A stretch of DNA of 64,000 nt, from assembly GCF_030285785.1 (NCBI RefSeq), contig NZ_CP127247.1:434001-498000 (forward strand), given 5' to 3'. Below the pieces are notes generated by a model. The model was not told the DNA's origin and did not search any database. It worked only from the letters and a program-made list of their open reading frames with translations. Each line of letters begins with the position of its first letter. Positions within the stretch are counted from its first letter, which is position 1. The stretch is from Parasedimentitalea psychrophila. Lineage in GTDB: Bacteria > Pseudomonadota > Alphaproteobacteria > Rhodobacterales > Rhodobacteraceae. A program made the translations under genes and the position numbers. Positions 11,750-57,342 of this stretch are shown here, piece by piece.

Positions 11750-11789
11750 CCCTGCCCGGCAGGGCATTGCGCATCAATGTCCCGAGAGG
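11750..11789 (-). repeat. Palindromic mini-insert A
   Basis: These 40 bp are absent at the same point of copy 2, where GATC joins GGACGTACC directly. On the minus strand the unit reads from CCTCTCGGG through the hairpin CATTG-ATG-CGCAATG to CTGCCGGGCAG. It is the clean before/after example of the repeat family found at 11832, 17081, 17778, 18174 and 57143. Confidence 0.85.
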
Positions 11790-11831
11790 GGACGTACCAA
11801 GGGCGGTATGAACACGAAGTTGCATGCCGTG

Positions 11832-11872
11832 CCCCCTCTCATGGTTTGCAGGCAAACCACTGCCGGGCAGTG
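11832..11872 (+). repeat. Palindromic mini-insert E, IS5-type copy 1
   Basis: A 41-bp unit with the same ends as insert A (CCCTCTC start, CTGCCGGGCAG end) has a different central hairpin, TGGTTTGC-AG-GCAAACCA. It separates the codons for KLHA-V and D-A-IGRP and is bordered by GTG on both sides, a possible 3-bp duplication. The same insert is present in copy 2. Confidence 0.75.
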
Positions 11873-12353
11873 GACGCGATTGGGCGGCCGATCCAGTTCT
11901 TCCTGACCGCCGGTCAGGTTAGCGATTACACTGGGGCAAGAGCTCTGGTGAATAGTCTGCCAGCGGCCGACTGGCTATTGGGAGATCGCGGATATGACGC
12001 GGATTGGTTCCGAGAGGCCCTTGTAGATATGGGAATATCGCCCTGCATCCCTGGACGAAAGTCGCGAGACAAAACCATCAAGTACGACAAGCGTCGTTAC
12101 AAAAGACGTAACCGGATTGAGATCATGTTTGGTCGCCTGAAAGACTGGCGGCGCGTGGCTACCCGTTATGACCGATGCCCGAAGGTCTTCCTGTCCGCCA
12201 TCGCTCTCGCAGCAACCGTGATCTTCTGGTTATGAGTCCTGAGCCTAAAAGACGAGCCGAAAGTTTGACTCGTGCTGACTAAGCCTCCAGCTATCACGCT
12301 GGATTCACGCAATGAAACCCGGCAGAAACTTGATGCAACAAAGCCTACTACTT

Positions 12354-14699
12354 TCAATTGGGTTTGGGTGTTGATTGTACATGAACATCCTGCGGTGCCC
12401 AACCCTGCTGCCAACGCTGCCAGACCTGTCGATACCCCTCTTCGAGATGCGCGGTGTAGGCGGCGGTGTCAAAAAGAGGTGTCGTCGCCAAATTTGCCCT
12501 CAAGCGCGATTTGACCGCTAACAACGCAGCCTTGTCGGTTGCAAGTTTTGTGATCAGATTCTCATACTGCTGCGCATCTTCGGTAATCAAGTCAGCCATT
12601 CCCACAGCCTTTAAAAGGCTGGCGGCGACGCGGGCCGCAAATTGTGATCCAGCTTTGGTAACGACAGGCAATCCAGTCCAGAGAGCGTCGCTTGCGGTCG
12701 TATGAGCGTTTACGTTGAAAGTATCTACAAAGATATCAGCAAGCCGATGGCGGGCCAGATGTGCGTCATGCGGGAGATTTTCGGCGAAAATCAACCGCGT
12801 CTCATCGACGCCGCGATCTCGCGCCGCCTGCTTAAGGTTATCTTTTGCCCATTCATTGCCATCCAGTAACCAAAGGACCGCCTTAGGCACTGATGACAGG
12901 ATGCGCATCCAAATGTCGAATTCCTGCGGTGTAATTTTGTAGCTGCTGTTGAAGCAACACAAAACCACAGCATCCTCGGGCAGCCCGCAGGACGCTCTGG
13001 AAACTGGGGCCTGCGCAATGATCCTATGATCATCGTTGGGCTGATAGCTGTCCGGCAGATAGATGAGCTGTTCCGAATAGTGTTCGCGCTGTTCTGGCGG
13101 CACGACGACGGTGTCTGCGATCAGATAGTCCATGCAAGGTGTTGCCATGGTGCCGGGATAACCCAAATAGCTGATCTGGATCGGAGCAAGACCTGCGGAA
13201 AAAGGACCCGTGCGCGCATCTTGCGTGTAGCCTTTCAGGTCAATGGCAATATCCAACTCGTCCTGCCGCGCCCGTTTTACTATGTCGTCATCCGACGCTA
13301 GATGGACGTCCACAAAATGCTCTGCGTTGCGGATCAGCCTGTCCAACTGCGGGCTTCGTTTCGGCTCATTCATGCAATACACAATAATTTCAAAATCAGC
13401 CTGATTGTGGTTTTCAATGACCCCATTCAACAAAAACAACGTCGCGTGTTCGCAAAGATCGCTGGAAAAATAGCCAACCCGGATCCGGGACCCTGTTGGT
13501 GACCCAGTCAGGTCCGCTCGATTGTTCTGCCACTGCTTTGCATATTGGCCAGAGCGAAGTTTTTGACGTTCGGGGTGATCTTCAAAACCCAATAACGGCC
13601 ATGGGGGAACAGCCTTGCCGGTGATGCCGATCGTATTGGCCACTGTTTCAAACTCCTCCTGTGCCTGCCAATCACACATCTGGGCCTGAAAATGGAGTTT
13701 CAGCGTCTGCGCGACATGCATGGAATCGTCTAAACTCACAGCTGTTCCATAAGCTGCAACGGCCAGGTCGAGACGCCCTTGGCGGTGATGAACATTGGCA
13801 ATATTGTGGTATGCTCTCGCGTAGTCTGGATTGAGAGCGATTGCTGCCATACAACTTAGAAGGGATGCATCATACTGCCGCGCAGAAAAATATGCGGAAG
13901 CCAGGTTGTTATGAGCCGAGGAATTATTCGGATCCAATACAGTCGCGCGCTCCAAATGCTTTAAGGCTTGAGGAATGTCCCCGGCTTCGTGATATGAATC
14001 CCCCAGGTTGAGATGCATAGCCGGTGAATTGGGGTCTAGCAGAATCGCGGATTTAAAAGCGTCTATGGCAGATCGGGTTTCGCCGTATTCCTGCAGGTAC
14101 TGACCAAGAAAACCGAAAGCTATGGCATTTCCTGTGTCCAGTTTGGTACTCGTCCTCAGATCAGCGATCGCTGCCTTAAGATCGCCGGCAGACCGATGCG
14201 CATTGCCTCGGGACGGATAATATCCAGCTTGTTTGGGTGACAGTTCAATGGCTGAGGTAAAGCTCTCAACAGCTTCAATGTAGTTACCTTGCGATTCCAA
14301 GGCAGCTCCCAGATTGAAATATGTCGAGGCAACTTGGGGCATTAGCCTCACGGACTGCCGAAAGGCGTTTTCAGCTAAAGCATGTTGGCCGAGTGCCGTT
14401 GCAGCAGCACCTCGCAATGTCCACAGCTGCTCCGAGTTTGGAAAAACGATCAACTGTTCACTTGTAATGGCCAGCGTGCGCTGAAAATGACCACTTTTGT
14501 AACTATTCACAATCTCACGAACTATAGTTTGTGAGGGTGCCGCAGCTATCGACCTTAGGCGTGAAATAGCTTTTTTTGCGCGCACATTTGCAGGGAATCG
14601 ATCAACGACACCTTCATAAACCTTCAACGCCAACGATATATTACCGTTGCGTTCTAGAGCCTTAGCCTCCGAAAACGCGATTTCGATGGAATTTTTCAT
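12354..14699 (-). CDS. TPR protein with O-GlcNAc-transferase-like (SPINDLY/GT41) domain
   Basis: The 781-residue protein starts with about 330 residues of tandem 34-residue TPR units (recurrent YFNLGAALESQG, AHNNLASAYF, AYHNIANVH patterns). A GT41 glycosyltransferase domain follows, with RVGYFSSDLCEHA, IDLKGYTQDAR, QISYLGYPGTM, a CCFNSSYKI segment and DTFNVNAHTTASDALW. Family members transfer GlcNAc or another sugar to Ser/Thr of proteins in the cytoplasm; bacterial homologues also modify flagellins or adhesins. It has its own AT-rich upstream region (14700-14880). It is bordered by IS elements and lies between the terminase scrap and the integrase of the decayed prophage, so it may be cargo. 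The target protein is not evident. Confidence 0.85.
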   Translation of the reverse strand: MKNSIEIAFSEAKALERNGNISLALKVYEGVVDRFPANVRAKKAISRLRSIAAAPSQTIVREIVNSYKSGHFQRTLAITSEQLIVFPNSEQLWTLRGAAATALGQHALAENAFRQSVRLMPQVASTYFNLGAALESQGNYIEAVESFTSAIELSPKQAGYYPSRGNAHRSAGDLKAAIADLRTSTKLDTGNAIAFGFLGQYLQEYGETRSAIDAFKSAILLDPNSPAMHLNLGDSYHEAGDIPQALKHLERATVLDPNNSSAHNNLASAYFSARQYDASLLSCMAAIALNPDYARAYHNIANVHHRQGRLDLAVAAYGTAVSLDDSMHVAQTLKLHFQAQMCDWQAQEEFETVANTIGITGKAVPPWPLLGFEDHPERQKLRSGQYAKQWQNNRADLTGSPTGSRIRVGYFSSDLCEHATLFLLNGVIENHNQADFEIIVYCMNEPKRSPQLDRLIRNAEHFVDVHLASDDDIVKRARQDELDIAIDLKGYTQDARTGPFSAGLAPIQISYLGYPGTMATPCMDYLIADTVVVPPEQREHYSEQLIYLPDSYQPNDDHRIIAQAPVSRASCGLPEDAVVLCCFNSSYKITPQEFDIWMRILSSVPKAVLWLLDGNEWAKDNLKQAARDRGVDETRLIFAENLPHDAHLARHRLADIFVDTFNVNAHTTASDALWTGLPVVTKAGSQFAARVAASLLKAVGMADLITEDAQQYENLITKLATDKAALLAVKSRLRANLATTPLFDTAAYTAHLEEGYRQVWQRWQQGWAPQDVHVQSTPKPN

Positions 14700-15073
14700 G
14701 GATAAGTTGTCACTTCAAGATTGAATGGAGCGCGTGTTACTTTAGCTGGTTGGTTCACATCAGGCGCACATAAATATTGTTAATGAATTGCAAAATTCAA
14801 GATCGCCAAAGTGTTGCCGTAAAATAGACCTAGGATAGATAAATTAAAAAATGGTTTTCATTTAATTTTATACTTACCGCGTGCCGAGTACCGTTAGCTG
14901 CCGATCAAGGTTACGCGCGGCACCCAAAAGTCAGGCGACGATGACACCTAAGGTGCTTGCGCAAATTCAAGCGAGTGACGAACCTGCAACGATCCAAATG
15001 CTGCAATCTGCACCAATGTCTGAAATGCGAAAGCTGCCATGCAGCGCCAAGCAAGTCTGGCAAGGCCCGGTTT
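14700..15073. other. AT-rich promoter region of the glycosyltransferase, then featureless sequence
   Basis: The first 180 bp are strongly A/T-rich and likely hold the promoter of the minus-strand glycosyltransferase. The remaining 190 bp up to the IS1182 terminal repeat contain only short unsupported frames. Confidence 0.5.
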
Positions 15074-15645
15074 GGGCTGAGGCTGTGTGGAAACGCATTT
15101 GATTGCGGGCTTTGTGTCTGTGCTTTTCCGTCTTTGGCGCTTCTTCTATTCCAAGAGCGCCATTTGTCCCCATTGGGGTCCTGTTTGATCGAGTTGGGGC
15201 TTTGATAGCGGGTTCTGACCGACAAGTATCGGTGTTCGGCTCATTTATGCCTTCAGCGCGGCCATCAAGGGGGCAATCCCGATTATATTGAGGACCCGTT
15301 TGAAGTTATAGGCCTGGACATGGAGGCTCATCTCTGCGGCGAGTTTTTCTCGTGTTCAGGTCAGGAAATGGGTGTGGCCCATCCAAGCCTTCAATGTTCC
15401 AAAGGGATGGTAACCGGGCCGTCCTGTCGCGGCAGCGCCGTGAAACCGATATCGACCAAATCAAGTGCATCAACAAAGGCGTCCACAGCCCGAACCGGAT
15501 TATCGTCGCTCACAAAACCCTCAAGATGAGCGGAGAAAAGAACGCCTTGTTCTCGGTCATCGCCTTCAATGAAACGCTTCATCCGACATCTCCTAATTAC
15601 TCAATGAGAGCAGCAGAAATACTCGTTTTCACACAGCCTCGGCCC
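15074..15645 (-). mobile_element. IS1182-type deletion derivative
   Basis: Terminal inverted repeats of about 21 bp, GGGC(T/C)GAGGCTGTGTG(G/A)AAACG, bound this 572-bp segment (15074 and 15645). Full elements of the family are roughly three times longer. Inside are only the first and last parts of the transposase gene, so an internal deletion produced a short non-autonomous form. Confidence 0.65.
15245..15582 (-). pseudogene. IS1182-type transposase, internally deleted
   Basis: The N-terminus MKRFIEGDDREQ...DDNPVRAVDAFVDALDL is followed after a deletion by the C-terminus FGTLKAWMGHTHFLT and KLAAEMSLHVQAYNFKRV, with a frame change and a TGA between the parts. The DDE catalytic centre is lost. 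Confidence 0.7.
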
Positions 15646-15659
15646 ATTGCGAACACGCT

Positions 15660-16595
15660 TTGACAGTTAAGGTTTGCCTGAAAGAAACATTTGACTCATG
15701 GATAAAAACGGAAGTACCCCTTTCACTTACAGTGCATTTACCACATAACATTCGAATGATTGAATTAGAAAGCAACCTGAGCAAAAAATACCGTCACAGT
15801 CTTGTTGACTGGTGGCAAAATCGCTATTGTGACTGTCTTGTTAGATATCAGGGAAAAGTCTGGTTCGTGAAGAAACAGGGAATTGCCGATATCAGGAGGA
15901 ACCTACTAGCGAGTTTATTGGGCGGGAAGTTGGCCAACGTCGCCCAAGTTCATTGTCTGGACAAGGCTGATTTCTCAGCTCTGAAAAATTGCGGGATAAC
16001 ATTACCAGAAAGTTCAAACTTTCTGAATACATGCTTGGTTCGATTTGCTCCGGATTACAATATTTGGGAACTTCCGAAGAAAACTCTCGAATCTGCGATG
16101 GCTGCGGAAATAGTGTTTTCGATCTGGATTCGCAGACGGGACGCGCACTCTTATAACCGAAATTTTAAAAATGGCATTCCGGTGTTTTATGATCACCAGA
16201 CGGCTTTCTTGGGCGAAAAGAAATTGCGCGAAATTGATTACTTCTTCCGAACAGGGCCTGGCCCTGGCTATGCGGGTCTTTGGAGGTTGGATGTCGGCGA
16301 TCATATTGAAATCGATACGGATTCACTGCGATCCCAGGAAAGGGAACGATTTTGTGGGTGCAATCATTACGTCGCACTTCCGATTCGTGACACCAATATC
16401 TTCCATCAAGAGTTGAACAGCATGGTCGAAGAAATAGCCGCTATCCCGAAAGCGGATATAAGGTGGAGCGTTAAAAAAGCGAGATTTAGTTTTTTTGAAC
16501 AATCTGCGGTGATCCGTTTTCTCCAAGAAAATCAGAAACAATTGAGTAAAGACGTTGATCTGCTTCGATCGAATTTGAAGTCGAAAAATGGTTGA
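15660..16595 (+). CDS. Unrecognised protein with kinase-like (HipA/PI-kinase-like) motifs
   Basis: A 311-codon frame starts at a TTG just outside the IS1182 terminal repeat; an internal ATG at 15756 (279 residues) may be the true start, the native 5' end having been replaced by the IS. I do not recognise the family with confidence. RRRDAHSYNRNF (about 160-171) fits the DxHxxN catalytic loop and PVFYDHQTAF the metal-binding aspartate of HipA/phosphatidylinositol-kinase-like folds. VWFVKKQG (about 61-68) could be the ATP-binding lysine strand. There is no signal peptide and no membrane segment. It is A/T-richer than its neighbours and flanked by IS elements, which suggests transfer. It could instead be a glycan-modification kinase linked to the GT41 enzyme. 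Confidence 0.5.
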   Translation: MTVKVCLKETFDSWIKTEVPLSLTVHLPHNIRMIELESNLSKKYRHSLVDWWQNRYCDCLVRYQGKVWFVKKQGIADIRRNLLASLLGGKLANVAQVHCLDKADFSALKNCGITLPESSNFLNTCLVRFAPDYNIWELPKKTLESAMAAEIVFSIWIRRRDAHSYNRNFKNGIPVFYDHQTAFLGEKKLREIDYFFRTGPGPGYAGLWRLDVGDHIEIDTDSLRSQERERFCGCNHYVALPIRDTNIFHQELNSMVEEIAAIPKADIRWSVKKARFSFFEQSAVIRFLQENQKQLSKDVDLLRSNLKSKNG

Positions 16596-16688
16596 CCGGA
16601 AAAAGGCTGCTTCCTAGGCTCAGGACCCATTAATCTGCTTGAGGCTATCTGTTCTGCATGATTCAAGTCCCCAAATTACGGGGGTTTT

Positions 16689-17036
16689 ATGAGTAATCTT
16701 TTCTGGCTGAGCGAAGATCAGATGGCTCGGCTTCGGCCCTATTTTCCGAAGAGTCATGGCGTGCCACGGGTCGATGATTGTCGAGTGTTAAGTGGTATTA
16801 TTTTCATCAATCGCAATGGGTTGCGTTGGTGTGATGCGCCCAAGGAGTATGGTCCACACAAGACGCTCTACAACCGCTGGAAACGGTGGAGCGACATGGG
16901 GGTGTTCGCGCGGATTATGATGGGGCTGGCAGCCGAGGTTCCTGACAACAAGACGATCTCAATTGACGCAACTTACCTCAAGGCACATCGCACGGCCTCC
17001 AGCCTGCGGGTAAAAAAAGGGGGCGTGGACGTCTGA
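16689..17036 (+). CDS. IS5/IS427-type transposase, first frame
   Basis: The 115-residue frame is identical to the one in copy 1 and carries the first catalytic aspartate in SIDATYLKAHR. It ends at TGA just after the A7-G5 slippery tract (17012-17023), where a minus-one shift would lead into GRLIGRTKGGMNTKLHA. Confidence 0.85.
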   Translation: MSNLFWLSEDQMARLRPYFPKSHGVPRVDDCRVLSGIIFINRNGLRWCDAPKEYGPHKTLYNRWKRWSDMGVFARIMMGLAAEVPDNKTISIDATYLKAHRTASSLRVKKGGVDV

Positions 17037-17484
17037 TCGGACGTACCAAGGGCGGTATGAACACGAAGTTGCATGCCGCGCCCCCTCTCATGGTTTGCAG
17101 GCAAACCACTGCCGGGCAGTGGACGCGATTGGGCGGCCGATCCAGTTCTTCCTGACCGCCGGTCAGGTTAGCGATTACACTGGGGCAAGAGCTCTGGTGA
17201 ATAGTCTGCCAGCGGCCGACTGGCTATTGGGAGATCGCGGATATGACGCGGATTGGTTCCGAGAGGCCCTTGTAGATATGGGAATAACGCCCTGCATCCC
17301 TGGACGAAAGTCGCGAGACAAAACCATCAAGTACGACAAGCGTCGTTACAAAAGACGTAACCGGATTGAGATCATGTTTGGTCGCCTGAAAGACTGGCGG
17401 CGCGTGGCTACCCGTTATGACCGATGCCCGATGGTCTTCCTGTCCGCCATCGCTCTCGCAGCAACCGTGATCTTCTGGTTTTGA
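17037..17484 (+). pseudogene. IS5/IS427-type transposase, second frame, interrupted by palindrome E
   Basis: GRTKGGMNTKLHA lies in the frame reached by the minus-one shift, but the 41-bp insert at 17081-17121 moves AVDAIGRPIQF and all later motifs (LLGDRGYDADW, RNRIEIMFGRLKDW) into the third frame. Either the protein is inactive and the copy was moved in trans, or a second shift event restores it. Confidence 0.7.
17081..17121 (+). repeat. Palindromic mini-insert E, IS5-type copy 2
   Basis: The unit has the same 41-bp sequence and position as in copy 1 (central hairpin TGGTTTGC-AG-GCAAACCA, then CTGCCGGGCAG). It was therefore present before the two copies separated. Confidence 0.75.
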
Positions 17485-17673
17485 GTCCTGAGCCTAGGGA
17501 GCTGCTTGGCTGAAACAACCAACTGGTGTGCCCCAGCAGTGGGCTTGGAAAAGATATTCGCGGGGATTAGAACCAAGGCTGGTAATGGGCTGGGAGTAGC
17601 AGTTGCATTGGTTCTGCTAAACGACTGTATTGTCCGTACAACAGACCTTGATGCCCACTGCAGCGAATGTCCT

Positions 17674-17957
17674 GTGTAGATGGCTCCTGCATAGCAAGAC
17701 ATTTTTGCGGTGATCCGCGCATTTGTCAGAAGCAGTCTTGTGTCCGGCCTGTTTGCGCGGTTTTGACCGCTGGCCCTCCCTTTCGGGACATTGCTGCGCA
17801 ATGCCCTGCCGGGCAGTGGATGGGTTCCGCGAACCAAGTCCCTTTCTGCTTTGCGGGCAATAGCGCCCGGGACATTCGACGGGGTGTCTTGGTTGTTGCG
17901 GCTGACTTTTGCACCATCACTTCGCAGGTCTTGCTATCTCGTGTTGTTTAGGTGTTT
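17674..17957 (-). ncRNA. Non-coding tail of IS1111-type element, candidate guide (bridge/seek) RNA region
   Basis: IS1111-group elements are known to carry their target-guiding RNA downstream of the transposase. This 284-bp tail has no supported frame and aligns in patches with the tail of the second element (shared CGGCCT-TTTGCG and ACCGCTGGCCC blocks). It contains palindrome B at the same distance from the terminal repeat. The RNA itself is inferred. Confidence 0.35.
17778..17819 (+). repeat. Palindromic module B in IS1111-type tail
   Basis: CCCTTTCGGG, hairpin CATTGC-T-GCGCAATG, then CTGCCGGGCAGTGG. It differs from inserts A and C at only a few positions and starts about 104 bp inside the terminal repeat, the same offset as module D in the second element. 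Confidence 0.8.
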
Positions 17958-18173
17958 TCAAATTGTTCTCGGCGTGTACGGCTCATTCTTTGTCAAAACT
18001 GCCCAGACGATCCGTGCCGTTTTATTCGCCATTGCCGCAGTTGCTAAGCGTGCTGGTTTGCGTTCCAAAAGGGCTGTTAGCCATTTGCTCGCCCTTTCCG
18101 GGTGGGATCGAGTCTGTCGCACAAGCGATGTCATTCCTACGACAAGGAGCTGGCGCAGATATTGATCACCCAT

Positions 18174-18215
18174 CCGCTGCCCGGCAGGGCATTGCGCAGC
18201 AATGTCCCGAGAGGG
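18174..18215 (-). repeat. Palindromic mini-insert C inside the IS1111-type transposase
   Basis: On the coding strand the unit reads CCCTCTCGGG, hairpin CATTGC-T-GCGCAATG, CTGCCGGGCAG. In the entering frame it would encode PLGTLLRNALPGSGW and leads to a premature stop. The frame that continues the transposase (MGDQYLRQLL) resumes immediately after it. Confidence 0.8.
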
Positions 18216-18819
18216 ATGGTGATCCGGCCTAATCGCTCTTTCCCACCACTCGATTTGTTGGCAGGCGTCAATCCTATCCACGCAGCAAACTCTCGACCAT
18301 TCCTGAACTGATGGCCATCGCCAATGCTAGCAGCGATCGCAGATGCCGTGACAGTGCCGACGCCAGGTATTGTTTGCAAGAGCCTCACGCGCGCGTCTCG
18401 CTTCGCCTCCAATCTCAGACGTGTCTCATACCATCTCACCTGCTCATGAAGGGCTCCAAGCCGCTGGCACAGATTGCGGAACACGTCCTGCGCAATAGTG
18501 GGAAGTTCCAGTTCAACGCCTTCGACCACACTTTGCGCAAAGCTGATCACCCGTGCGAGGCCACGGGCAATGTAGATACCAAACTCGGCCAACAGACTGC
18601 GAAGCGCATTGATCAATTGGGTGCGTTGTCGAACAATCAGATTTTGTGCCCGGTGCAAGGACAGAAGCGCTTGTTGGTCAACCGATTTGATTTCAACAAA
18701 CCGCATCGTGGGCCGCGTGACTGCTTCGCAAATAGCCTCCGCATCAATCGCGTCAGTGAACCTCGTCCCTGTTCCCAGACACTGGGGTACTTTACCCCTG
18801 TCCATGAAAGGGGCACCAA

Positions 18820-19116
18820 ATGGGACGACAGCGACGGAATTATACGGACGATTATAAGGCTGCGGCAGTTGAACGGCTTTACGAGCCAGGAGCGACGCAG
18901 GGTAGCGTGTCGAGCGAGCTTGGGATCACCGGTACACAACTGAAGACGTGGAGGCTTGAGATTGAGGCGTTTGGTTCATCAGAAGCCAAGCGCCGTCAGA
19001 AGGCGGATGCCGCTGAACTGGTCCGCCTTCGCAAAGAGAACAGGCGTCTTGCTGAGGAAGTGGAGATTTTGCACAAGGCATCCGCTTTTTTCGCAACGAG
19101 GGCGGTGAAACCATGA
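18820..19116 (+). CDS. IS3-family OrfA (HTH protein)
   Basis: The 98-residue protein has an IS3-type HTH (GATQGSVSSELGITGTQLKTW) and a C-terminal leucine-zipper-like helix (ELVRLRKENRRLAEEVEILHK). It overlaps OrfB by ATGA, as usual when the active transposase is an OrfAB fusion made by frameshifting. Confidence 0.88.
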   Translation: MGRQRRNYTDDYKAAAVERLYEPGATQGSVSSELGITGTQLKTWRLEIEAFGSSEAKRRQKADAAELVRLRKENRRLAEEVEILHKASAFFATRAVKP

Positions 19117-20012
19117 CGAACAAGCACAGCTTCGTCACTGCCCATAAAGCGCAATATGCGGTCTCCACATTATGCCGACACCTCAAGATATCTCGGGGTT
19201 GGTTCTATGGCTTTCTGACCAGTCAGGACGCCCGAGATCAGCGGCGTACCATCCGTGAAGCGCGAGATCTGGAGTTGCTGCCAAAGATAAAGGCGTTTTT
19301 CAAAGCCAGCGGGAAATGCTATGGGTCCAAGCGTATTCATCAGGATCTAATGGCTGATGGTGAGATCGCTTCTGAGCGGCGTGTGGCGATAATAATGAAA
19401 GAAAACAAGGTGTCTCCGCTTCTGCGTAAGCGCCGAAAGCCCAAAACTACTGACAGCAATCACGACATGAAGCCTTCACCAAATCTATTGGAGCAGAAGT
19501 TCAACTGCCAGACGCCCAACGCCGTTTGGCTGGCGGATATTACCTATATCGACACGGATGAAGGGTGGCTTTACTTGGCTGGCATCAAAGACATGTCCAC
19601 GCGGGAGATTGTTGGCTGGGCGATGGAGGACCATATGCGGGCAGAGCTCTGCTGTGAGGCCCTGAAGATGGCTCTGGCGCGACGAGGGCCCGTTTCCGGA
19701 TTGATCCACCATTCCGACAGGGGGAGCCAGTATGCAGGTGGGAAATACCGCAAGCTAATTGGCAAGGCCTCCATCACCCAATCCATGAGCCGCAAAGGAG
19801 AATGCCTGGATAACGCGCCAATGGAGAGCTTTTTTGCTTCATTGAAAAAAGAACTCGTGCATCGCCATCGGTTCAGAACGCGCGCTCAAGCCAAAGCTGC
19901 AATCTTCGAATACATTGAGGTCTTCTACAATCGCCAGCGCCGCCACTCCAGTATCGGCTACAAAACGCCCCTGCAGGCATTTGAAGATACAGCTTTGAAA
20001 ATGGCCGCATAG
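19113..20012 (+). CDS. IS3-family OrfB (DDE integrase)
   Basis: The 299-residue rve-type integrase has an HTH_21 region (YGSKRIHQDLMADG), then the DDE triad in WLADITYID, IHHSDRGSQYAG and ECLDNAPMESFFASLKKE. The C-terminal FEYIEVFYNRQRRHSSIGY is standard for the IS3 group. A scrap of a close relative lies at 40770-40905. Confidence 0.9.
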   Translation: MTNKHSFVTAHKAQYAVSTLCRHLKISRGWFYGFLTSQDARDQRRTIREARDLELLPKIKAFFKASGKCYGSKRIHQDLMADGEIASERRVAIIMKENKVSPLLRKRRKPKTTDSNHDMKPSPNLLEQKFNCQTPNAVWLADITYIDTDEGWLYLAGIKDMSTREIVGWAMEDHMRAELCCEALKMALARRGPVSGLIHHSDRGSQYAGGKYRKLIGKASITQSMSRKGECLDNAPMESFFASLKKELVHRHRFRTRAQAKAAIFEYIEVFYNRQRRHSSIGYKTPLQAFEDTALKMAA

Positions 20013-20472
20013 GGTCAATAGTGAAACTGTCCGGTTTTAGGGACGAGGATCACAGACTTGCCGCGCTTCACATAAGGTTTGACATACATCGGCGGGATAA
20101 GCCGTACTTCATGTCCCACTTGACTCAGCTCGCGCGCCCAGTGATGGCTGGTACCGCAGGCTTCAATCCCGACCAAACAAGGATCAAGGCGCTTAAAAAA
20201 TGCCAGCACCTGCGCACGGCGCAACGGGCGATTGAATGCGACTTCACCTGCATCAGTCACACCATGCACATGAAAGATGTTCTTGGCCAGGTCGAGGCCA
20301 ACTGTTGTAACTTGCATTGGGTGGCTCCCCTCATTCGCAGATTTCGACACCTGCATTATGGCGCAAAGCGACGCCGGTTGGAGCAGGAGCCATCCACCCC
20401 ATCTGCTTTCCGCGGCGGTTTCAACGGGTCGACGCAACACTTTAGTCTTTATGGAAAGATGGAGTGTAAATC

Positions 20473-20590
20473 ATGGCCTATCGCCGCAGACATTTTTTTA
20501 CAGAGAAACAGAAGTCGGAGATCTGACATCGTTGGCAATGCGGAGAGCCGATGAGTTCGATTGGACGTGGATTTGATCGTGCATCATCAT
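20473..20590 (+). pseudogene. IS30-type transposase N-terminal scrap
   Basis: Translation gives YRRRHFFTEKQKSEI, an in-frame TGA where tryptophan is expected, then HRWQCGE and MSSIGRGFDRASSS, the HTH of IS30-family transposases. The homology stops at about 20590, where phage-type sequence of the other strand begins. Confidence 0.6.
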
Positions 20591-20591
20591 C

Positions 20592-25429: not shown

Positions 25430-26020
25430 GGTGCTGTCAGGCGAATTCGGACCAGTCTCAGTTTACCACCAAGGACGGGAACCTATGCTGAACAAGGTAG
25501 CCGCCACTCAGCGAGAGCGGCGGTGCGGTTGAGCTTGAAATTTTCGCGTGAATAAAGGTGACGCTCCTGGTTGAAGTGGTTGCAGACCGAGGCGTGTACG
25601 GAGACGAACTTCTGCAAACTTCGCATTCGGCGGAAACGCAGCATGGCTCTCTCTCGTCGGCGAAATGACAGATGAGAATTCTCAACCCGGTTATTCGACC
25701 TACGGCCGGTTTCTTGTTTGTCTGCATTGCCGATGACCTTCATCGCAGCGCCGTAAGACCGCAATAGATCGGTCACGATGACATGTGGTGGGCCAAAGCG
25801 GTTCCACCAAAACCGCACAGTCTCATGGCTGATTTCGATCCCGCGCTCATGCAGAAAATCCTCCACATTCCGGAGCGTCAGGGGGAACCGGACGTACAAC
25901 ATCACCGCAAGGCGGATGATGTCGGGACTGGTCTTGAAATACAAAATGGGCAGTGTTGGTCATGCCGAGAAGCTAAATCGCCACCCTGCCCTTCACTACC
26001 GAGTTTCCTCTGACAGGACC
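25430..26020 (-). mobile_element. IS6-family element, internally deleted (copy 1)
   Basis: Ends GGTGCTGTCAG (25430) and CTGACAGGACC (26020) are imperfect inverted repeats. At 591 bp it is about 230 bp shorter than typical members. The missing part is the centre of the transposase gene. Confidence 0.7.
25483..25944 (-). pseudogene. IS6-family transposase, central DDE segment deleted
   Basis: The N-terminal YFKTSPDIIRLAVMLYVRFPL and SHETVRFWWNRFGP join directly to PHVIVTDLLRSYGAAMKV. The first catalytic aspartate segment (DEVFVKI-type) is lost. The second copy (58495-58908) shows a KRFGPPHVIVTD context, so the deletion joined two RFGP-coding repeats. A possible one-base loss also separates the native ATG from YFK. 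Confidence 0.8.
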
Positions 26021-48728: not shown

Positions 48729-48731
48729 AGA

Positions 48732-50216: not shown

Positions 50217-51091
50217 CCTTTGAGCCCTGCCATAACAACGCCGCGAATAATGAAGCGTTGGAAAATCAAAAATACGATGAGAGTTGGAATGGTCGAAATA
50301 GCCGCCCCTGTCATGATCAACTCCCAGGCGACATCCGCCTCGTCACCAAAGCCGGACAAGCCAACCGGAATTGTGTACATCTCGGTTGAATTGGTCACGA
50401 TTAGCGGCCACAAAAATGCGGTCCAGTTGCCCAAAAAGACAAAGATCGCCAGGGCCGCCAAGGCTGGTTTCACCAGCGGCAGTGCGACAGTCCACCAAAT
50501 CTGCAACTCGTTCAGCCCATCAATTCGGGCGGCTTCGATGAAATCGTCAGGCACAGTTTCAAAAAACTGCTTCATCAGGAAGGTGCCAAACCCTGTCATA
50601 AGACCGGGGAACATGATCCCCCAATAGCTATCCAACCACCCAAAAGACTGGCTCATCAAATACCACGGGATCACCAGCATTTCTGTAGGGATCATCAGCG
50701 TTGACAAGATGGCAATGAACACAATAGTGCGGCCGGGAAATTTGAATTTGCACAGGGTATAGCCGACCAGACTGTCAAACAGCAGATTGGAAATCGTGGT
50801 CAGAACCGCGATGATACCCGAGTTGATAAACCACATGTAGAACCGCCCATCCTCGAGCACAAACATGTAGTTATCTAAAGTTGGCTCAACCGGGATCAGA
50901 TTCACATTATAGACTTCGTGCGGCCACTTCAGCGAGGTCGAGATCATATAGGCGATGGGCATCACCATCAGCACGCCACCGCCAAACAGGACCAACCAGC
51001 GCAGAATTTGCCCCATGTTTCGGTTTGCGGATATTGACTTCTTCGCCATCACCGCAGTTGCGGTGGGCCGGATTATTTCTGTTGTGCTCAT
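50213..51091 (-). CDS. CUT1-type ABC permease (MalG-like)
   Basis: The 292-residue protein has an N-terminal transmembrane segment (LVLFGGGVLMVMPIAYMIS) and about five more, with the EAA loop DDFIEAARIDGLNELQIWWTVALPLVKP. It ends by overlapping the start of the lyase gene and begins one base after the MalF-like gene. Confidence 0.9.
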   Translation of the reverse strand: MSTTEIIRPTATAVMAKKSISANRNMGQILRWLVLFGGGVLMVMPIAYMISTSLKWPHEVYNVNLIPVEPTLDNYMFVLEDGRFYMWFINSGIIAVLTTISNLLFDSLVGYTLCKFKFPGRTIVFIAILSTLMIPTEMLVIPWYLMSQSFGWLDSYWGIMFPGLMTGFGTFLMKQFFETVPDDFIEAARIDGLNELQIWWTVALPLVKPALAALAIFVFLGNWTAFLWPLIVTNSTEMYTIPVGLSGFGDEADVAWELIMTGAAISTIPTLIVFLIFQRFIIRGVVMAGLKG

Positions 51092-51092
51092 G

Positions 51093-51986
51093 TCAGCTGC
51101 TCCTCAGCAGGCGCAGTTGTATCAGACTGACACACATAAGGATGGTGAACAGCACCACGGTCTGCGCGGCAGCATAGCCCATATTGAAACTGTTAAACGC
51201 CGTATCATAGATCATCAGAACCAGTGGTTTTGTCGCATTCAGCGGCCCACCAGGATTGTTCGTGGTCATATTGAACACATGGTCAAAGATCCGCAAAAAC
51301 CCAATCGACGAAAACACCACAATAAACACGATGGTCGGGCGCAGCAGCGGCAGAGTGATCTGTGTCAGCACGACCCACCACCCGACACCGTCAATGCGTG
51401 CCGCCTCGTAATAAGAAGTTGGAATGGCGCGGATACCAGCCATGAAAATGATCACCTGAAACCCCAATCCAGCCCAGACCGCAGGGGCCAGAACAGCCGG
51501 CAGTGCATTTGTGGTTGAGTTCAGAAATTCAATTTGCGCGATCCCAAAGCTGGCCAGGACATTATTGAACAATCCAATGGGAACCGCTTGATAGAACCAG
51601 CGCCAAACCCAAGCCATGGCCACCGCACTTGTCATGAAGGGCAGGAAATACAACATCCGCATAAAACCATGCATGAAGCGGACCTTGTCCAAGTGATAAG
51701 CGATCACAAAGGACAGAACCAAGGACACAGGTGTGCCGATCAGAAGATAGGCGAAGGTATTGCGAAACACCTTCCAGAACACCGGATCATTCCACAGTTT
51801 GATATAGTTATCAAAACCGGTCCAGGTCCGCGCGCCCAGCAAGTTCCAGTCTTGGAACGAAATCAGAATTGCCGTGCCGGTGGGGTAAAACCGGATCACC
51901 GAGTAGAAAACGACCGGCACCGCTAAAAAGGTCCAGGCCCAGACAATCTGTTTCTGTTTGATTGTCAGGTTGCGATAGATGCTCAT
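51093..51986 (-). CDS. CUT1-type ABC permease (MalF-like)
   Basis: The 297-residue protein has six hydrophobic segments and an EAA loop at TSYYEAARIDGVGWWVVLTQITLPLLRP. It is preceded by a hairpin that separates it from the binding-protein gene and is followed directly by the second permease. Confidence 0.9.
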   Translation of the reverse strand: MSIYRNLTIKQKQIVWAWTFLAVPVVFYSVIRFYPTGTAILISFQDWNLLGARTWTGFDNYIKLWNDPVFWKVFRNTFAYLLIGTPVSLVLSFVIAYHLDKVRFMHGFMRMLYFLPFMTSAVAMAWVWRWFYQAVPIGLFNNVLASFGIAQIEFLNSTTNALPAVLAPAVWAGLGFQVIIFMAGIRAIPTSYYEAARIDGVGWWVVLTQITLPLLRPTIVFIVVFSSIGFLRIFDHVFNMTTNNPGGPLNATKPLVLMIYDTAFNSFNMGYAAAQTVVLFTILMCVSLIQLRLLRSS

Positions 51987-52022
51987 CGGATGTCCGGTTG
52001 TTAAATGGTCAGAAACAGGGAG

Positions 52023-52052
52023 CTTCCCCAGAGCCTAGGCCCTGGGGAGAAG
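52023..52052 (-). terminator. Hairpin after the binding-protein gene
   Basis: CTTCCCCAGAGCC and GGCCCTGGGGAGAAG form a long imperfect stem immediately after the binding-protein stop and before the first permease. No T-run follows. Confidence 0.6.
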
Positions 52053-52053
52053 T

Positions 52054-53313
52054 TTACTTGGAGTAATATTCGTTCAGGATTTTTTGCTCGGCCTCGGCGG
52101 CAATGGCCAGACTTTCGGCAATCGGCTGATTTTCAATATCGGTACGTGCCACCATATCGACCAATACCTGCCGCTGCGAGCTTTCGTTGGCAAAAACTGT
52201 CGTGTGTGCGTAGGCTAATCCTTTGATAAATGGCCCAAAAACAGGATCATTGGCGTTGGTCTCGGTTAGCCCAACCGAAGGTTTTGCCGGCAATTCACCC
52301 ACCACGTCCAGCCAGATCTGCATCGCCGCATCCGAGGTGATATAGGACATGAACTTTAGTGAGGCCTCGTACTTCTCTCCCTCGGCCTTGGTGGTCACTG
52401 CATTGACCCAATAAGAGGAATAGTTGGACTGGGTCCCATCAACAGCGGCGGGCAATTCAGCAACGCCCCACTTCAACCCGCGGATTGCCTTAAGCGACCC
52501 AATGCGGAATGAGCCGTCGATGTGCATTCCTGCCCTGCCCGCTTTAAACGCGGCTTGGGGTTCATCCATAAAGCCCGAGGCTGTAACCCCGTGCAGCTTT
52601 TCCAGATCAGTATAATACTGCAATGCGGCGGCCCCAGCCTCACTGTTGTAGGACACAGTATCGTAGCCATCATTATACGGCGTACCGCCAAACTGGCGGA
52701 TCAAACCTTCGCGAAACCAATGATGGTCCTGCGCGGTCATGCCAGTGGTAATTCCCACCTGAGTGATATTTCCCGCGCCGTCGCGCTTGGTCAGCTTTTT
52801 TGCAACCTCGATCAATTCGTCCAGATCGGCAGGTGGTGCAGTAATACCGGCCTCGTCAAACAGGCGCTGGTTATAAAACAGCGCCAAGCTGCGTACGGCT
52901 GTGGGCAGTGCATAATAGGCACCGTCCTTTTTCATCGCCTGAACCATCGGGAAGAAGTCTTTGTCGATTTCCGATGGCGAAAAAGCTTCGACCGGCAGGG
53001 GCTGAATCAAGTCGGCAGCGATGTAGTCATTCAACCAACCATAGAACAATTGCACAACGTCCGGGCCTTCTCCTGCAGGAATGGCGGCAGCAACTTTGGT
53101 GCGATAATCTGCGTAGGGAAAGTGGGTCATCTTAACAGTAATACCAGGGTTCTCGGCCTCGAACCCCTCAATCAGCTGCTCCATCGCCGTTACGCGGGCA
53201 TCATAATAATATTGCCAATACTGAATCTCAACGTCTGCAGTGGCCGAAGAGGCAAGCAGTGCTGAGGATGCTGTCAGGCTGGCGACGACCAATCCTTTGA
53301 ATGTCTTCATCAT
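52054..53313 (-). CDS. CUT1-type ABC transporter substrate-binding protein
   Basis: The 419-residue SBP_bac_1 protein has a signal peptide (TASSALLASSATADVE) and mature-domain features IPAGEGPDVVQLFYGW, FKAGRAGMHIDGSF and AMQIWLDVVGELPAKP. GGAGAAAG precedes the ATG at 53313. It is the first gene of the amino-sugar transporter operon, divergent from the ROK repressor, with the operator between them. The expected ligand is an amino sugar or an amino-sugar-containing oligomer, by context only. Confidence 0.88.
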   Translation of the reverse strand: MMKTFKGLVVASLTASSALLASSATADVEIQYWQYYYDARVTAMEQLIEGFEAENPGITVKMTHFPYADYRTKVAAAIPAGEGPDVVQLFYGWLNDYIAADLIQPLPVEAFSPSEIDKDFFPMVQAMKKDGAYYALPTAVRSLALFYNQRLFDEAGITAPPADLDELIEVAKKLTKRDGAGNITQVGITTGMTAQDHHWFREGLIRQFGGTPYNDGYDTVSYNSEAGAAALQYYTDLEKLHGVTASGFMDEPQAAFKAGRAGMHIDGSFRIGSLKAIRGLKWGVAELPAAVDGTQSNYSSYWVNAVTTKAEGEKYEASLKFMSYITSDAAMQIWLDVVGELPAKPSVGLTETNANDPVFGPFIKGLAYAHTTVFANESSQRQVLVDMVARTDIENQPIAESLAIAAEAEQKILNEYYSK

Positions 53314-53390
53314 GGGCTTTCTCCAAGTTGCGTGTCTGGCTCCGCGATAATACCGGAGGTGTGCATCATTTCGCTGTTCTGGAAACCGTA

Positions 53391-53430
53391 TTAACTCAAC
53401 TTGCTTGAATTATCAAGTTATTTGAGTTAA
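53391..53430. promoter_or_regulatory. 40-bp nested palindrome, likely ROK operator
   Basis: Outer arms TTAACTCAA (53391) and TTGAGTTAA (53422) are perfect. Inside them CTTGA-ATTA-TCAAG (53404-53417) forms a second palindrome. It lies 10 bp before the ROK gene and about 78 bp before the divergent binding-protein gene, so one site can repress both. Confidence 0.75.
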
Positions 53431-53439
53431 TGCTCTGAC

Positions 53440-54609
53440 ATGACTTCATCACCCACCTTAAAGGGCAGCAATGCCGAACGCTCGCGGACCCGAAACAGAA
53501 TTGCTGTGTTGGGCAAGATTCACCACTCAGGAGAGTTGGGACGGGCGGAATTGGCCCGTGGTTTAGACCTGAGCGTGCAGGCGGTCAGTAATATCATTGC
53601 CGACCTGCTTGGGGATGGAATGCTGGTAGAAAAAGGCGCGCGTTCTGCGGGACGCGGGTTGCCGGCGGTGCAATACGGAATAAACCCGACCGGTGGGTAT
53701 GCGTTGGGCATCGAGATCCGGCCAACGGTGATCTATGCTGCGATGTTAGATCTACTTGGCGACACAGTTTTTACCCATCGCTCCACCATTGGTGATGCAC
53801 AACCAGATGCGGTCGTTCCAGAGGTGACGCGGCTGCGGGATCTGGCACTGCAAGCTGTACCAAAGGCCAGGGATCGCCTGCTGGGGGCCGGCATCGTAAT
53901 GCCCGGGCCCTTTGGGGCCACAGGCCTTTCCGGCCGCGAAACGGATTTACCCAACTGGCAAAATGTCAATCCAACTGAACTGTTCCAAACGGCACTCAAC
54001 CTGCCAATTGAAGTCAGCAACGACGCCAACGCCGCTGCCATGTCTGAACGCATATCTGGATGCGCTCAAGGCTTGGGCAGTTTTGGGTACTTATACTTTG
54101 GCAGTGGACTTGGCCTTGGGCTGGTCAGTCAGGGTCACTTGATCCGTGGTGCGTTTGGCAACGCAGGCGAGATTGGCCACATCCCAGTGCCAACGCCGCG
54201 GGGCTCGGCCCCTCTGGAAACCCGGCTCAGCAGAATGTCAGTCCAGCATCACCTGGAGTTGGCAGGCCAGGAAGACGTTGATTTCGAAGCTCTTGAAGCA
54301 CTGTATGTCCAGTCGAACCCTGATCTGATGACGTGGTTACGTTCAGCAACAGATGCCTTGGGTCACGCGACACAAATTATCGAAAACATCTTTGATCCGC
54401 GTACCATTATTCTGGGCGGGGCCATGCCCGAGACAATCCTACAGCATCTGGTAAACAATGTGGTCCTGAACAGCGCATCAGTATCCCAGCGGAATGACAA
54501 CTCTCAACCGCGTCTTCAGTGTGGCGCGTCTGGACGGCTGGTTGCCACTTTAGGGGCTGCTGCGTTGATCCTGAACAGGCGCCTCACACCCAACGCCGCC
54601 GACCTATAA
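53440..54609 (+). CDS. ROK-family transcriptional repressor (NagC/XylR type)
   Basis: The 389-residue protein has an N-terminal winged HTH (ARGLDLSVQAVSNIIADLLGDGML, then GRGLPAVQY) and a ROK domain with GYALGIEIRPT and NDANAAAMSER. Where most ROK proteins have the zinc-binding CxCGxxGCxE, this one has TPRGSAPLETRLS, so the metal site is lost. The domain still has the sugar pocket features and GHIPVPT. It probably senses the transported sugar and controls the divergent operon and its own gene plus the PIG-L gene 26 bp downstream. Confidence 0.87.
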   Translation: MTSSPTLKGSNAERSRTRNRIAVLGKIHHSGELGRAELARGLDLSVQAVSNIIADLLGDGMLVEKGARSAGRGLPAVQYGINPTGGYALGIEIRPTVIYAAMLDLLGDTVFTHRSTIGDAQPDAVVPEVTRLRDLALQAVPKARDRLLGAGIVMPGPFGATGLSGRETDLPNWQNVNPTELFQTALNLPIEVSNDANAAAMSERISGCAQGLGSFGYLYFGSGLGLGLVSQGHLIRGAFGNAGEIGHIPVPTPRGSAPLETRLSRMSVQHHLELAGQEDVDFEALEALYVQSNPDLMTWLRSATDALGHATQIIENIFDPRTIILGGAMPETILQHLVNNVVLNSASVSQRNDNSQPRLQCGASGRLVATLGAAALILNRRLTPNAADL

Positions 54610-54635
54610 TTAAAACCCATCTCAGTGGAGCCCCT

Positions 54636-56999
54636 ATGTCTTTGACCGATCCCGAGCGCCTGGCGGCTGAACGTTTGACGCCACAGATTTTGCAGCTTTG
54701 GCGTGCCCTCGTGCCATTGAAGTCAGTAATTTCGTTCATGAGTACCGGCGCACACCCCGACGATGAAAAGTCTGACATACTGGCGGCACTGTCTTTCCGC
54801 GATGGGTTTGACCTTAGCTATGCTTGCTCAACGCGGGGAGAAGGCGGGCAAAATGATATCGGTACCGAAGCAAGTGAGGCACTGGGCACCCTGCGCACGG
54901 CCGAAATGGAACGCGCCTGTGATATCCTGAACATGCGCATGTACTGGCACTGCGAGGACCCGCAAGACAGTATTTTCGATTTTGGGTTCTCCAAGTCTGG
55001 AGTCGAAACTCTTGGAAAATGGGGCCACAAACGACTGTTAAAGCGGTTTGTCGAGATCGTCCGAACTGAGCGCCCTGATATCATGTGTCCGACCTTCTTG
55101 GATGTCCCGGGGCAACATGGGCATCATCGCGCGATGACCCAAGCCGCCTTCGAAGTCACGAGTTTGGCGGCAGATCCGAACTACGCAGAAAGCGACCTAC
55201 CGGTCTGGCAGGTCAGAAAACTCTACCTGCCAGCCTTTTCCGGCGCAGGCCAGGCCTATGACGACGATCTACCGCCACCGCCGGTGACGCTGACAGTCCA
55301 GGTCAAGGGGGTCGAGCCGCACACCGGCTGGAGCTTTGCCCGGATCGGACAGCAGAGTCGAGCGTTCCATTTGACCCAGGCAATGGGGCGTTGGGTTTCA
55401 GCGGACGACGAAAAGGACTGGCCACTCCATTTGGCGCAAAGCCATGTTGCTGGACCCGACACAGATCTGCATTCGGGGCTTGCGTCCACTCTGGCTGATA
55501 TCGATGAGCCTGCGCTGAACCCTGTCCTCCGCGAAGCTCAGAATAATATTACGGCCGCTATAGCAGCCTTTCCTGATGGGGCGAAAATTCTGCCACTGGC
55601 CTGTTCTGCATTGCGCTACATCCGCGATGCAATCCAGGTTTGCCCTGACCAAGCCCGTGGAGACATTCTGCACAAACTGACCCGCAAAGAGACGCAGCTA
55701 TCACACTTGATCACAATTGCCGCCGGTGTCCAGGTCCATGCCCGTCTCGACAAGTCCTACTTAAATGCGGGTGATGGAGTTGAGATAACAACCGAATTGC
55801 GTCCAGGCATGGTCGAGACCATCGCTGTCAAATCAGCATTGCCGAAGGGGTGGTCACAGGATCAAAACAGGCTCATCACGACGGTGGATGTGCAGGTCAC
55901 AGACCCCTACCCTTCGTTCTATCTGCCAGACACACCCAGGTTGCCCTGCATCGAGGCAAGTCTAGTGGTGCATGGCGAACAAATTGTCCGCCGGTTTGCA
56001 TTTGAGACTCCGCCGGTTGTACTGCCTGCTTATTCAGCAGCGATCACCCCCGATGCAGATGTTATCAACTCGGCAGTGGCAGATCGCACGCTGACGATAG
56101 CGGTAAAAGACATTTTTCCGCCAACGGCAAAGGTCTCGCTCTTGCTTCCGGACCACTGGCAGGCAACCAAGACAGAGACTGGATTCATTGTGACAGCCCC
56201 TGACGATGTCTCCGAAGGCCGATACAGCCTCGGGCTGTTACTGGATGGCCGACCTGCGCAGCAAGTCCGTAAGATCAAATACTCTCACATTGATCCACGT
56301 GCAGTTATCAGCCCGGCAGAATTGAGCATTCAAGTCGTTCACGTGGCGCTTCCAGATGTGCGGGTTGGCTACATTGGCGGTGGCAATGATCGGGTTGATC
56401 ATTGGCTCGACCGGCTGGGCGTCGATGTTGCTGCCGTTAGCGACGACAATCTCAAAAGTGACACCGCGCTTGCAAGGTTTGACACTTTGGTCATTGGAAT
56501 TTTTGCCCTAAAGTTTCGCGACGGTTTGGCGGAGCAAATGCCGCGATTGCATAGATGGTGCGAACGAGGCGGCACTTTGCTGACCCTATACCACCGGCCA
56601 TGGGACAATTGGGATCCGGACCGCAGCCCACCCCGACCGCTTGAAATTGGCCAACCATCGCTTCGCTGGCGGGTTACAGATGAGACGGCAAAGGTCGACG
56701 TTCTGCAACCAAATTCTCCACTGATGACCCGTCCAAACCAAATCACAGACGCCGACTGGGAGAACTGGCAAAAAGAACGCGGGTTGTATTTTGCCAAACA
56801 ATGGGATCCGGCTTATCTTCCTATTTTGTCAATGGCAGACCCCAAAGAGCAGCCTTTGCAAGGCGCGCTTCTTTGCGCAGATATTGGCAAGGGCCGGCAC
56901 ATTCATACTTCGCTTATCCTACATCATCAGATGGAAAAAACCACTCCGGGTGCCTTTCGGATAATGGCCAACCTGCTGGCAAAACGGGACGTTTTATGA
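54636..56999 (+). CDS. Large PIG-L/LmbE-family deacetylase with C-terminal extension
   Basis: From the ATG at 54636 (GTGGAGC upstream) the protein has 787 residues. The first 250 form a PIG-L/LmbE domain with the zinc motif GAHPDDEKSD and the third ligand in GQHGHHRA. These enzymes deacetylate N-acetylglucosamine-type residues. The middle is beta-rich, and the last 220 residues (VGYIGGGNDRVDHWL, FDTLVIGIFALKF, RWCERGGTLLTLYH) resemble a class I amidotransferase/ThuA-like fold. It follows the ROK repressor and fits the amino-sugar theme. There is no signal peptide, so action on an imported glycoconjugate in the cytoplasm is likely. Confidence 0.75.
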   Translation: MSLTDPERLAAERLTPQILQLWRALVPLKSVISFMSTGAHPDDEKSDILAALSFRDGFDLSYACSTRGEGGQNDIGTEASEALGTLRTAEMERACDILNMRMYWHCEDPQDSIFDFGFSKSGVETLGKWGHKRLLKRFVEIVRTERPDIMCPTFLDVPGQHGHHRAMTQAAFEVTSLAADPNYAESDLPVWQVRKLYLPAFSGAGQAYDDDLPPPPVTLTVQVKGVEPHTGWSFARIGQQSRAFHLTQAMGRWVSADDEKDWPLHLAQSHVAGPDTDLHSGLASTLADIDEPALNPVLREAQNNITAAIAAFPDGAKILPLACSALRYIRDAIQVCPDQARGDILHKLTRKETQLSHLITIAAGVQVHARLDKSYLNAGDGVEITTELRPGMVETIAVKSALPKGWSQDQNRLITTVDVQVTDPYPSFYLPDTPRLPCIEASLVVHGEQIVRRFAFETPPVVLPAYSAAITPDADVINSAVADRTLTIAVKDIFPPTAKVSLLLPDHWQATKTETGFIVTAPDDVSEGRYSLGLLLDGRPAQQVRKIKYSHIDPRAVISPAELSIQVVHVALPDVRVGYIGGGNDRVDHWLDRLGVDVAAVSDDNLKSDTALARFDTLVIGIFALKFRDGLAEQMPRLHRWCERGGTLLTLYHRPWDNWDPDRSPPRPLEIGQPSLRWRVTDETAKVDVLQPNSPLMTRPNQITDADWENWQKERGLYFAKQWDPAYLPILSMADPKEQPLQGALLCADIGKGRHIHTSLILHHQMEKTTPGAFRIMANLLAKRDVL

Positions 57000-57035
57000 C
57001 CATCGATGCGTTTGCAAAATTGATGGTGCTGTCAT

Positions 57036-57342
57036 GTGTGGACGGCTCCGGTTGCGCAAGGGTTGATTTGAACTGATTTTGATCGTTGCAGGTTGCGGTA
57101 ATGTGTTCGGCCTTTGTTTGCGGTTCATATAACCGCTGGCCCCCCTTTCGGCAGATTGCTTCGCAATCGCCTGCCGGGCAGTGGATGAAGTCCGCTTGCC
57201 AGGTCCCAATCAGACCAGCGAGCATTATAGCCCAGACAGCACCTCGGGGTGTCCCGGCGGCGGTTCCTTTCGATCATCATCACTCACGTCTGCCCTTGCA
57301 TCTCATCGCGGCGTAGTCAGGCGCCGCATGTACCTCCTTCGT
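57036..57342 (-). ncRNA. Non-coding tail of IS1111-type element 2, candidate guide RNA region
   Basis: Downstream of the transposase stop there is no supported frame. The tail shares blocks with that of element 1 and contains palindromic module D at the same offset. IS1111-group guide RNAs are known to come from this position; expression here is inferred. Confidence 0.35.
57143..57184 (+). repeat. Palindromic module D in IS1111-type tail
   Basis: CCCTTTCGG, hairpin GATTGC-TTC-GCAATC, then CTGCCGGGCAGTGG. The outer parts agree with modules A, B, C and E while the central stem differs in sequence but keeps its pairing. Confidence 0.75.

Follow-up and report, generated by a model that had tools for sequence, protein, structure and literature searches.

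The nearest class in print to the sequences described here is that of the CGTC-tagged repetitive extragenic palindromes (REPs) of alphaproteobacteria, which include dRS3, RPE-4 and RPE-6 (Di Nocera et al. 2013, PMC3733652). According to the available part of that report, these REPs carry a CGTC, TGTC or CCTC tag, 8-9 bp stems starting with AT and a CCA-like tail, are mostly intergenic, and show only fortuitous association with other transposase genes; the words rhodobacter, roseo and silicibacter do not occur in the same part of its text. In the 64,000-nucleotide stretch of Parasedimentitalea psychrophila analysed here (contig NZ_CP127247.1, positions 434,001 to 498,000; hereafter the window), six palindromic units of about 40 nt, U1 to U6, lie in transposase genes and tails of insertion sequences (ISs). 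As far as the printed description of the CGTC-tagged REPs goes, both are small palindromes, mostly of alphaproteobacteria, with no known dedicated transposase. However, the units differ in tag, stem and location, and CRTC appears only as the complement of their target flank.

We consider it probable that the units represent a very small, non-autonomous mobile DNA element, living mainly in Rhodobacterales, with a hairpin that is recognised by a trans-acting enzyme. They occupy many sites, were inserted precisely, without target duplication and in either orientation, and most of them lie within or next to transposase genes belonging to several IS types. Repeats of this small palindromic kind are generally classed as intergenic REPs, but these units strongly prefer transposase genes, which represent six or more IS types. 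Moreover, pairs of occupied and empty sites within one genome open the movement of orphan palindromes, for which no transposase is known, to direct testing.

The initial annotation had listed six units of one design, and all six were confirmed in the window with coordinates right to within 1-2 bases; their alignment displayed constant ends and a variable centre. Each element consists of a 5′ shoulder CCCTCTC, a hairpin, CTGCCGGGCAG and YG. The near-constant 3′ mini-hairpin reads CTGC-CGG-GCAG, while the first hairpin is variable in sequence with its pairing kept. The length was 41 nt at 79 of 148 sites (96 in other genomes and 52 in the host), with a range of 34-45 nt save for one parser error of 47. 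When CTGCCGGGCAG was searched in the window at up to one mismatch, 17 matches were obtained, 12 of them being the six units counted on both strands, as against 1.85 expected and at most 6 in 100 shuffles counted alike.

The evidence for the structure of the unit is covariation, and the covarying centre noted in the initial annotation was upheld. Among 31 distinct units, 26 cells had changed on both sides of the stem, whereas 500 shuffles averaged 5.0 and never reached this number, and a one-sided change was seen in only 1 cell. Paired cells made up 92.8% in these units and at most 52.8% in slid controls, the structure having been drawn from the same 31 units on which it was tested. The 3′ palindrome served to find these units and is for that reason invariant in the set; it does vary in weaker copies of the genome. 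In 136 of 163 distinct units, the stems comprised 783 Watson-Crick, 22 G-T and 17 other pairs, while the same stem finder returned 5571, 1533 and 958, respectively, on shuffled cores. G-U pairs are usually tolerated in structured RNA. The scarcity of G-T pairs in the stems therefore suggests selection or correction at the DNA level.

To what extent the element has spread was apparent from the host genome (listed as 5.0 Mb, 4 contigs, 99.99% complete). Here, there were 23 occurrences of the 15-mer TGCCCTGCCGGGCAG and none of its reversed control. A covariance model built on 32 units, 18 of which came from this genome, so that it was partly trained on it, detected 122 copies at E ≤ 0.1, all on contig C1; this number is a lower bound, as 150 of 5064 candidates were scored. 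The 122 matches yielded 114 parsed units (8 were left unparsed) at about 65 insertion sites, a few of which were counted double since one flank differs, for example 665199 and 850975. Parsed lengths of 42-47 nt at 669914, 3035963, 4139688 and 4688245 are doubtful, the 47 being the parser error. Together with the empty sites described below, these copies bore out the proposal of a spreading element in several IS families: further copies are neither few nor a fixed part of one IS.

An empty homologue, in some cases a distant one, was found for 36 of the 65 sites among the loci compared, and for 20 the alignment was gap-free at the junction. The empty counterpart of U1 in the same genome, at 99.6% identity, reads CGTCC^GATC (the caret marks the junction), and that of site 3024085, likewise in the same genome and at 95% identity, reads GAAACCAT^GACGAAC. 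No target duplication was seen at the empty-site comparisons. The insertions follow a weak target, C^GAYG, with C at -1 in 104 of 148 sites, followed by G in 106, A in 96, T or C in 119 and G in 87. Furthermore, one identical 37-nt unit is present at two unrelated sites, 445833 and 3600479, and U4 and U5 have a hairpin core in common; two further identical pairs were found, but in related flanks. In IS5-type genes, one site immediately ahead of a GAC codon is occupied by units with different hairpins in several loci (L197, L217, L224, L232, L245, L246, L266, and host sites 415726 and 3732061), which may reflect either repeated hits on a hot spot or rewriting in place. At the same site in locus L205 (reverse complement index 5035), only CC, CTGCCGGGCAG and TG are left, which looks like a scar after deletion of the first hairpin.

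The most conspicuous property of the units is their location. In the host, transposase or integrase sequence is present no more than 600 bp away from 58 of 73 sites, and on both sides of 28 of them. The library used for this count held 41 transposase and integrase sequences, 15 of which are pieces of these or neighbouring sites, the other 26 being annotated independently; with the 26 alone, 50 of the 73 sites were near a transposase. Later scans added sites 2204720 and 3295336 to those near transposases. Among 128 loci elsewhere, 72 of 125 distinct pattern matches were near transposases, as against 10 of 228 control positions in the same loci (p=1e-29), and with the 26 independent sequences alone this applied to 59 of the 125 matches against the same 10 of 228 controls. 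A hairpin filter was passed by 96 of the 125 matches, 59 of which were near transposases. Domains identified in the flanks were rve/HTH_21 (read as IS3), DDE_Tnp_1 and DDE_Tnp_1_5 (IS5), DDE_Tnp_IS240 (IS6), IstB (IS21), IS110 and Transposase_mut (IS256); one flank piece matches a phage integrase, and 14 of 30 pieces gave no match. An enrichment of the target motif in transposases was rejected as an explanation: a target matrix from 142 sites scored 35.3 motifs per kb in transposase genes and 33.5 per kb in other genes, and with densities so alike the motif does not explain the location.

The data do not distinguish between three accounts of the location in transposase genes: a neutral refuge, true targeting, and amplification as a passenger of the IS. 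Insertion might have been random, the survivors being found mainly in dead ISs, and this we regard as unlikely. Insertions in working genes would indeed be lost, and many host ISs look decayed. On the assumption of random insertion we would expect many intergenic units, yet the bulk of the host sites is near transposases, and two of the ISs that were hit moved afterwards. At the other extreme, the units could be parasites of parasites that, with a recombination system of their own, aim at transposase genes as a class, turn these off by scarless insertion, perhaps reactivate them by excising exactly, and are spread by the interrupted ISs; we hold this to be a doubtful extension of the probable reading given above. 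Inverted dimers, which characterise REPINs, were sought and rejected as the organisation of the units, since neighbours within 520 bp among the 122 matches comprised 17 inverted and 13 direct pairs.

At least two ISs were shown to transport a unit. The IS5-type element of the window is present in 8 copies of 95-100% identity, the lower values stemming from U1, and of 99-100% identity over 371 bases outside the units. All 8 copies carry U2 and 4 carry U1 in addition, while the next IS5 relatives in the host genome are only about 68% identical. The ends were examined in 7 of the 8 copies, and the flanks differ except in a tandem pair. This pair, at 4795276-4797087 of the chromosome, consists of two IS5 copies that each bear U1 and U2 and have a common end sequence. 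The IS110-type element is present in 5 copies of 99-100% identity, which have differing surroundings; each bears U4 in its tail and U5 in its gene. No close uninterrupted copy of either IS was found in the host genome. As 8 of 8 IS5 and 5 of 5 IS110 near-identical copies have a unit in the transposase gene, both ISs have spread while interrupted. Relatives of the IS5-type element on plasmids (76% identity), which are annotated as IS5 transposases, align 35-37 bases shorter. The aligned IS110 copies have 20 variable columns, of which 7 are within the 41 columns of U5 (p=8e-6), and the changes there comprise a paired stem exchange (CATTGC/GCAATG to CATCGC/GCGATG) as well as loop and end changes. 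This clustering suggests that the unit is rewritten in place faster than its carrier changes. Two candidate processes were rejected: excision seen as reversion, because the IS5 copies fit a single U1 insertion and do not require excision (informative sites are few), and insertion of IS110 into units, because the five IS110 copies end in other sequence.

It is puzzling that these ISs continued to move although all their close copies are interrupted, and one may ask whether elements of this kind hold ISs in check in marine Rhodobacterales. One answer would be that transposase is still made from the interrupted gene, by translational bypass or by removal of the element from the RNA. The multi-copy state of both interrupted ISs would fit this, and by eye the hairpin behind a run of C resembles a frameshift stimulator. 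However, the units are sense and antisense to the gene in a ratio of 27:26 in the host (53 of the 65 sites have a long frame) and 36:32 elsewhere, and the parsed insert lengths modulo 3 at the 65 sites are 2 at 37 sites, 1 at 20 and 0 at 8, a few lengths being parser errors. On this even orientation and these length classes bypass and frameshifting were rejected, and the few G-T pairs also speak against them; we deem the explanation highly improbable. For the same three reasons the role in RNA that the initial annotation had suggested was not supported.

The partner enzyme was sought among several transposases. REP-associated tyrosine transposases (RAYTs) of the IS200/Y1 type, as thought to move the GTAG REPs, would account for size, hairpin, absence of target duplication and a short target motif at one flank. 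In addition, a near-full-length Y1 gene with one stop is present in a congener with 87 units (G155). However, the host genome, which is the richest with 118-122 copies, contains 0 Y1_Tnp matches at E ≤ 0.001, and Y1 occurs in 4 of 8 congeners without tracking the number of units; the one Y1 gene in the genus that is full-length and free of stops sits in the genome with 0 units. Moreover, the units are mostly intragenic and lack the GTAG tag. The RAYT/Y1 partner considered in the initial annotation was therefore rejected as such, and mobilisation of a REP-like element in this way appears very unlikely. Partial Y1_Tnp matches were observed in two unit-bearing congeners (G153:C65, G153:C32, G153:C100, G154:C33, G154:C40 and G154:C25).

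IS91-type elements, with an HUH (Y2) transposase, insert without target duplication beside a short motif. Within the genus, Y2_Tnp matches occur only in the three genomes of 8 that are richest in units (118, 87 and 49). Among 34 further genomes, by contrast, Y2 matches were present in 8 of the 17 that are rich in units and in 4 of the 17 that have none (p=0.28), so that 9 of the rich genomes were without Y2, and IS-rich genomes may hold more of every IS. Five stretches around IS91 copies (L396-L400) contained no unit, and one locus (L375) has one CCCTCTCGGGG string without the 3′ palindrome. Mobilisation by IS91 thus remains a lead that is confounded with IS load, and we judge it quite unlikely. 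In locus L376, at about 48-75, one end of an element of the IS91 type has the sequence AAGCCGCTCTCGCGGCAATGG, whose resemblance to the shoulder and first stem of the unit was noted by eye. The IS110 partner that had likewise been considered was not shown, and the copies of IS110 appear to be carriers. A search for an autonomous version of the unit, confined to right ends, gave 11 that lacked a recognised shoulder in 2.0 Mb of loci; several of these look like degenerate units, and one is the scar-like sequence of L205.

In the mechanism we favour, that of a non-autonomous element with a recognised hairpin, an enzyme supplied in trans would recognise the folded single strand or a cruciform and paste the unit in, in a manner that may be likened to HUH-type or hairpin-using recombinases. 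HUH elements (IS200/IS605, IS91) make no target duplication and have a target motif at one flank and subterminal hairpins; the units have hairpins, a one-flank target motif and no target duplication. A second multiplication would occur as an IS passenger, with the interrupted gene complemented in trans, and correction, either templated by the hairpin or between copies, could rewrite the hairpin in place. Several observations weigh against this reading. No mobilising enzyme was identified in the searches described above, and the folding energy as single-stranded DNA is ordinary in five units (z -0.68 to -2.66). The units are divided 33:32 between leading and lagging strand (origin and terminus guessed from GC skew), which lends no support to a lagging-strand mechanism. 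For 29 of the 65 sites no empty homologue was found in the loci compared, and 16 showed gaps near the junction. U1 and U2 are one C short of the target rule, and some other sites are 1-3 bases off at the left junction. Finally, one flank piece matches a GntR regulator, and some copies are intergenic, such as a unit between annotated genes on a Leisingera plasmid, or lie in unrecognised sequence.

We file the units as small palindromic mobile repeats, no description of the family itself having been found in the open-licence PMC literature searched. A term search in the Octadecabacter genome paper (PMC3646047) gave no match to palindrom, miniature or repetitive, and no Rfam family reaches its gathering score in the window (0 matches). 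From the partial text of PMC3733652, the GTAG REPs resemble the units as hairpin elements thought to be moved by a trans-acting transposase; the units, however, end in CCCTCTC and CAGYG. REPs are mainly extragenic whereas the units are not, even though U4 and U6 lie in non-coding tails. Rickettsia palindromic elements are, like the units, palindromic insertions inside genes. They are translated in frame within host proteins, while the units do not keep the reading frame, with about 8 of 65 parsed lengths being multiples of three. Miniature inverted-repeat transposable elements are small, non-autonomous and present in many copies, which also applies to the units, but they have terminal inverted repeats and a target duplication; the units have no target duplication and no clear terminal inverted repeats. 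In IStrons, an IS is joined to a group I intron (PMC4227781), and from what is available of that source the likeness lies in a second parasite joined to an IS; with about 41 nt, the units have no room for a group I intron.

The family is found mainly in Rhodobacterales. In 8 genomes of the genus, 118, 0, 1, 7, 1, 49, 17 and 87 copies were detected at E ≤ 0.01. The 15-mer was present in 32 of 149 genomes of a family sample, and of 29 loci judged, 17 had a recognisable shoulder, 11 were chance matches (several in one conserved gene) and 1 was cut off. At E ≤ 1e-4, the order yielded matches in 93 of 292 genomes, or 50 of the 112 genera sampled, and the class yielded 6 matching genomes out of 385, 4 of which belong to the same family as the host; as few candidates per genome were scored, both surveys undercount. 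Carriers among the matches listed are Ruegeria, Sagittula, Leisingera, Sulfitobacter, Salipiger, Jannaschia, Roseovarius and one Labrenzia. A 45-nt unit was matched by 151 plasmid records at E ≤ 10, 107 of them covering at least 80% of the unit, and the plasmid carriers include the R. pomeroyi megaplasmid and D. shibae pDSHI04. Two viral contigs (L296 and L302) contain unit-like sequence with a common right flank, CGGGATATCGAACTGT. A short form of 32 nt plus YG, with the hairpin GGCGGC..GCCGCC, was observed in L181, L222 and L254 (Leisingera), L233 (an uncultured member of the Rhodobacteraceae) and L269. Its right flanks are similar, end in ATATTT or GTATTT and have no transposase match; the short form may have an intergenic setting of its own.

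The positions of the units and their carriers in the window are compiled below. The initial annotation had placed four units in transposase genes and two in IS1111-type tails. The division into four and two was retained, with U1 to U3 assigned to IS5-type genes and U5 to an IS110-type gene, and the tails with U4 and U6 were corrected to non-coding tails beside IS110-type genes.

Table. Units and carrier ISs in the window (the caret marks the junction at which the unit is absent).
Feature	Position	Strand	Remark
U1, 40-nt insert in IS5-type transposase gene, antisense to gene	11750..11789	-	Near-identical copy at 17036 without unit (CTGATC^GGACG)
U2, 39-nt insert in same IS5-type gene as U1, sense	11834..11872	+	73%-identical relative without unit reads GTGACC^GAT
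U3, the U2 insertion in second IS5 copy	17083..17121	+	Borne by 8/8 near-identical IS5 copies
U4, 41-nt insert in non-coding tail of IS110-type element	17778..17818	+	Empty homologue in locus L091; unit in 5/5 near-identical IS110 copies
U5, 41-nt insert in IS110-type gene (gene on - strand), sense to gene	18175..18215	-	Paired hairpin changes among 5 near-identical IS copies
U6, 41-nt unit in tail of second IS110-type element, same position as U4	57143..57183	+	Repeat family D6
IS5-type element with U1 and U2	11351..12241	+	Extent of DNA match; chromosome 445351-446241
IS5-type element with U3, without U1	16640..17490	+	Extent of query; true ends few bases beyond
IS110-type element with U4 and U5, gene-start side truncated by IS3-like sequence	17672..18758	-	Approximate limits

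The IS3-like sequence that cuts off the IS110 copy of the window extends over about 18757-19291, and the other four IS110 copies are not cut in this way. In addition, the window contains two unit-free repeats, at 25437-25736 and 58449-58748, which are 81% alike and match unit-bearing IS6-type sequences at 504987 and 861677.

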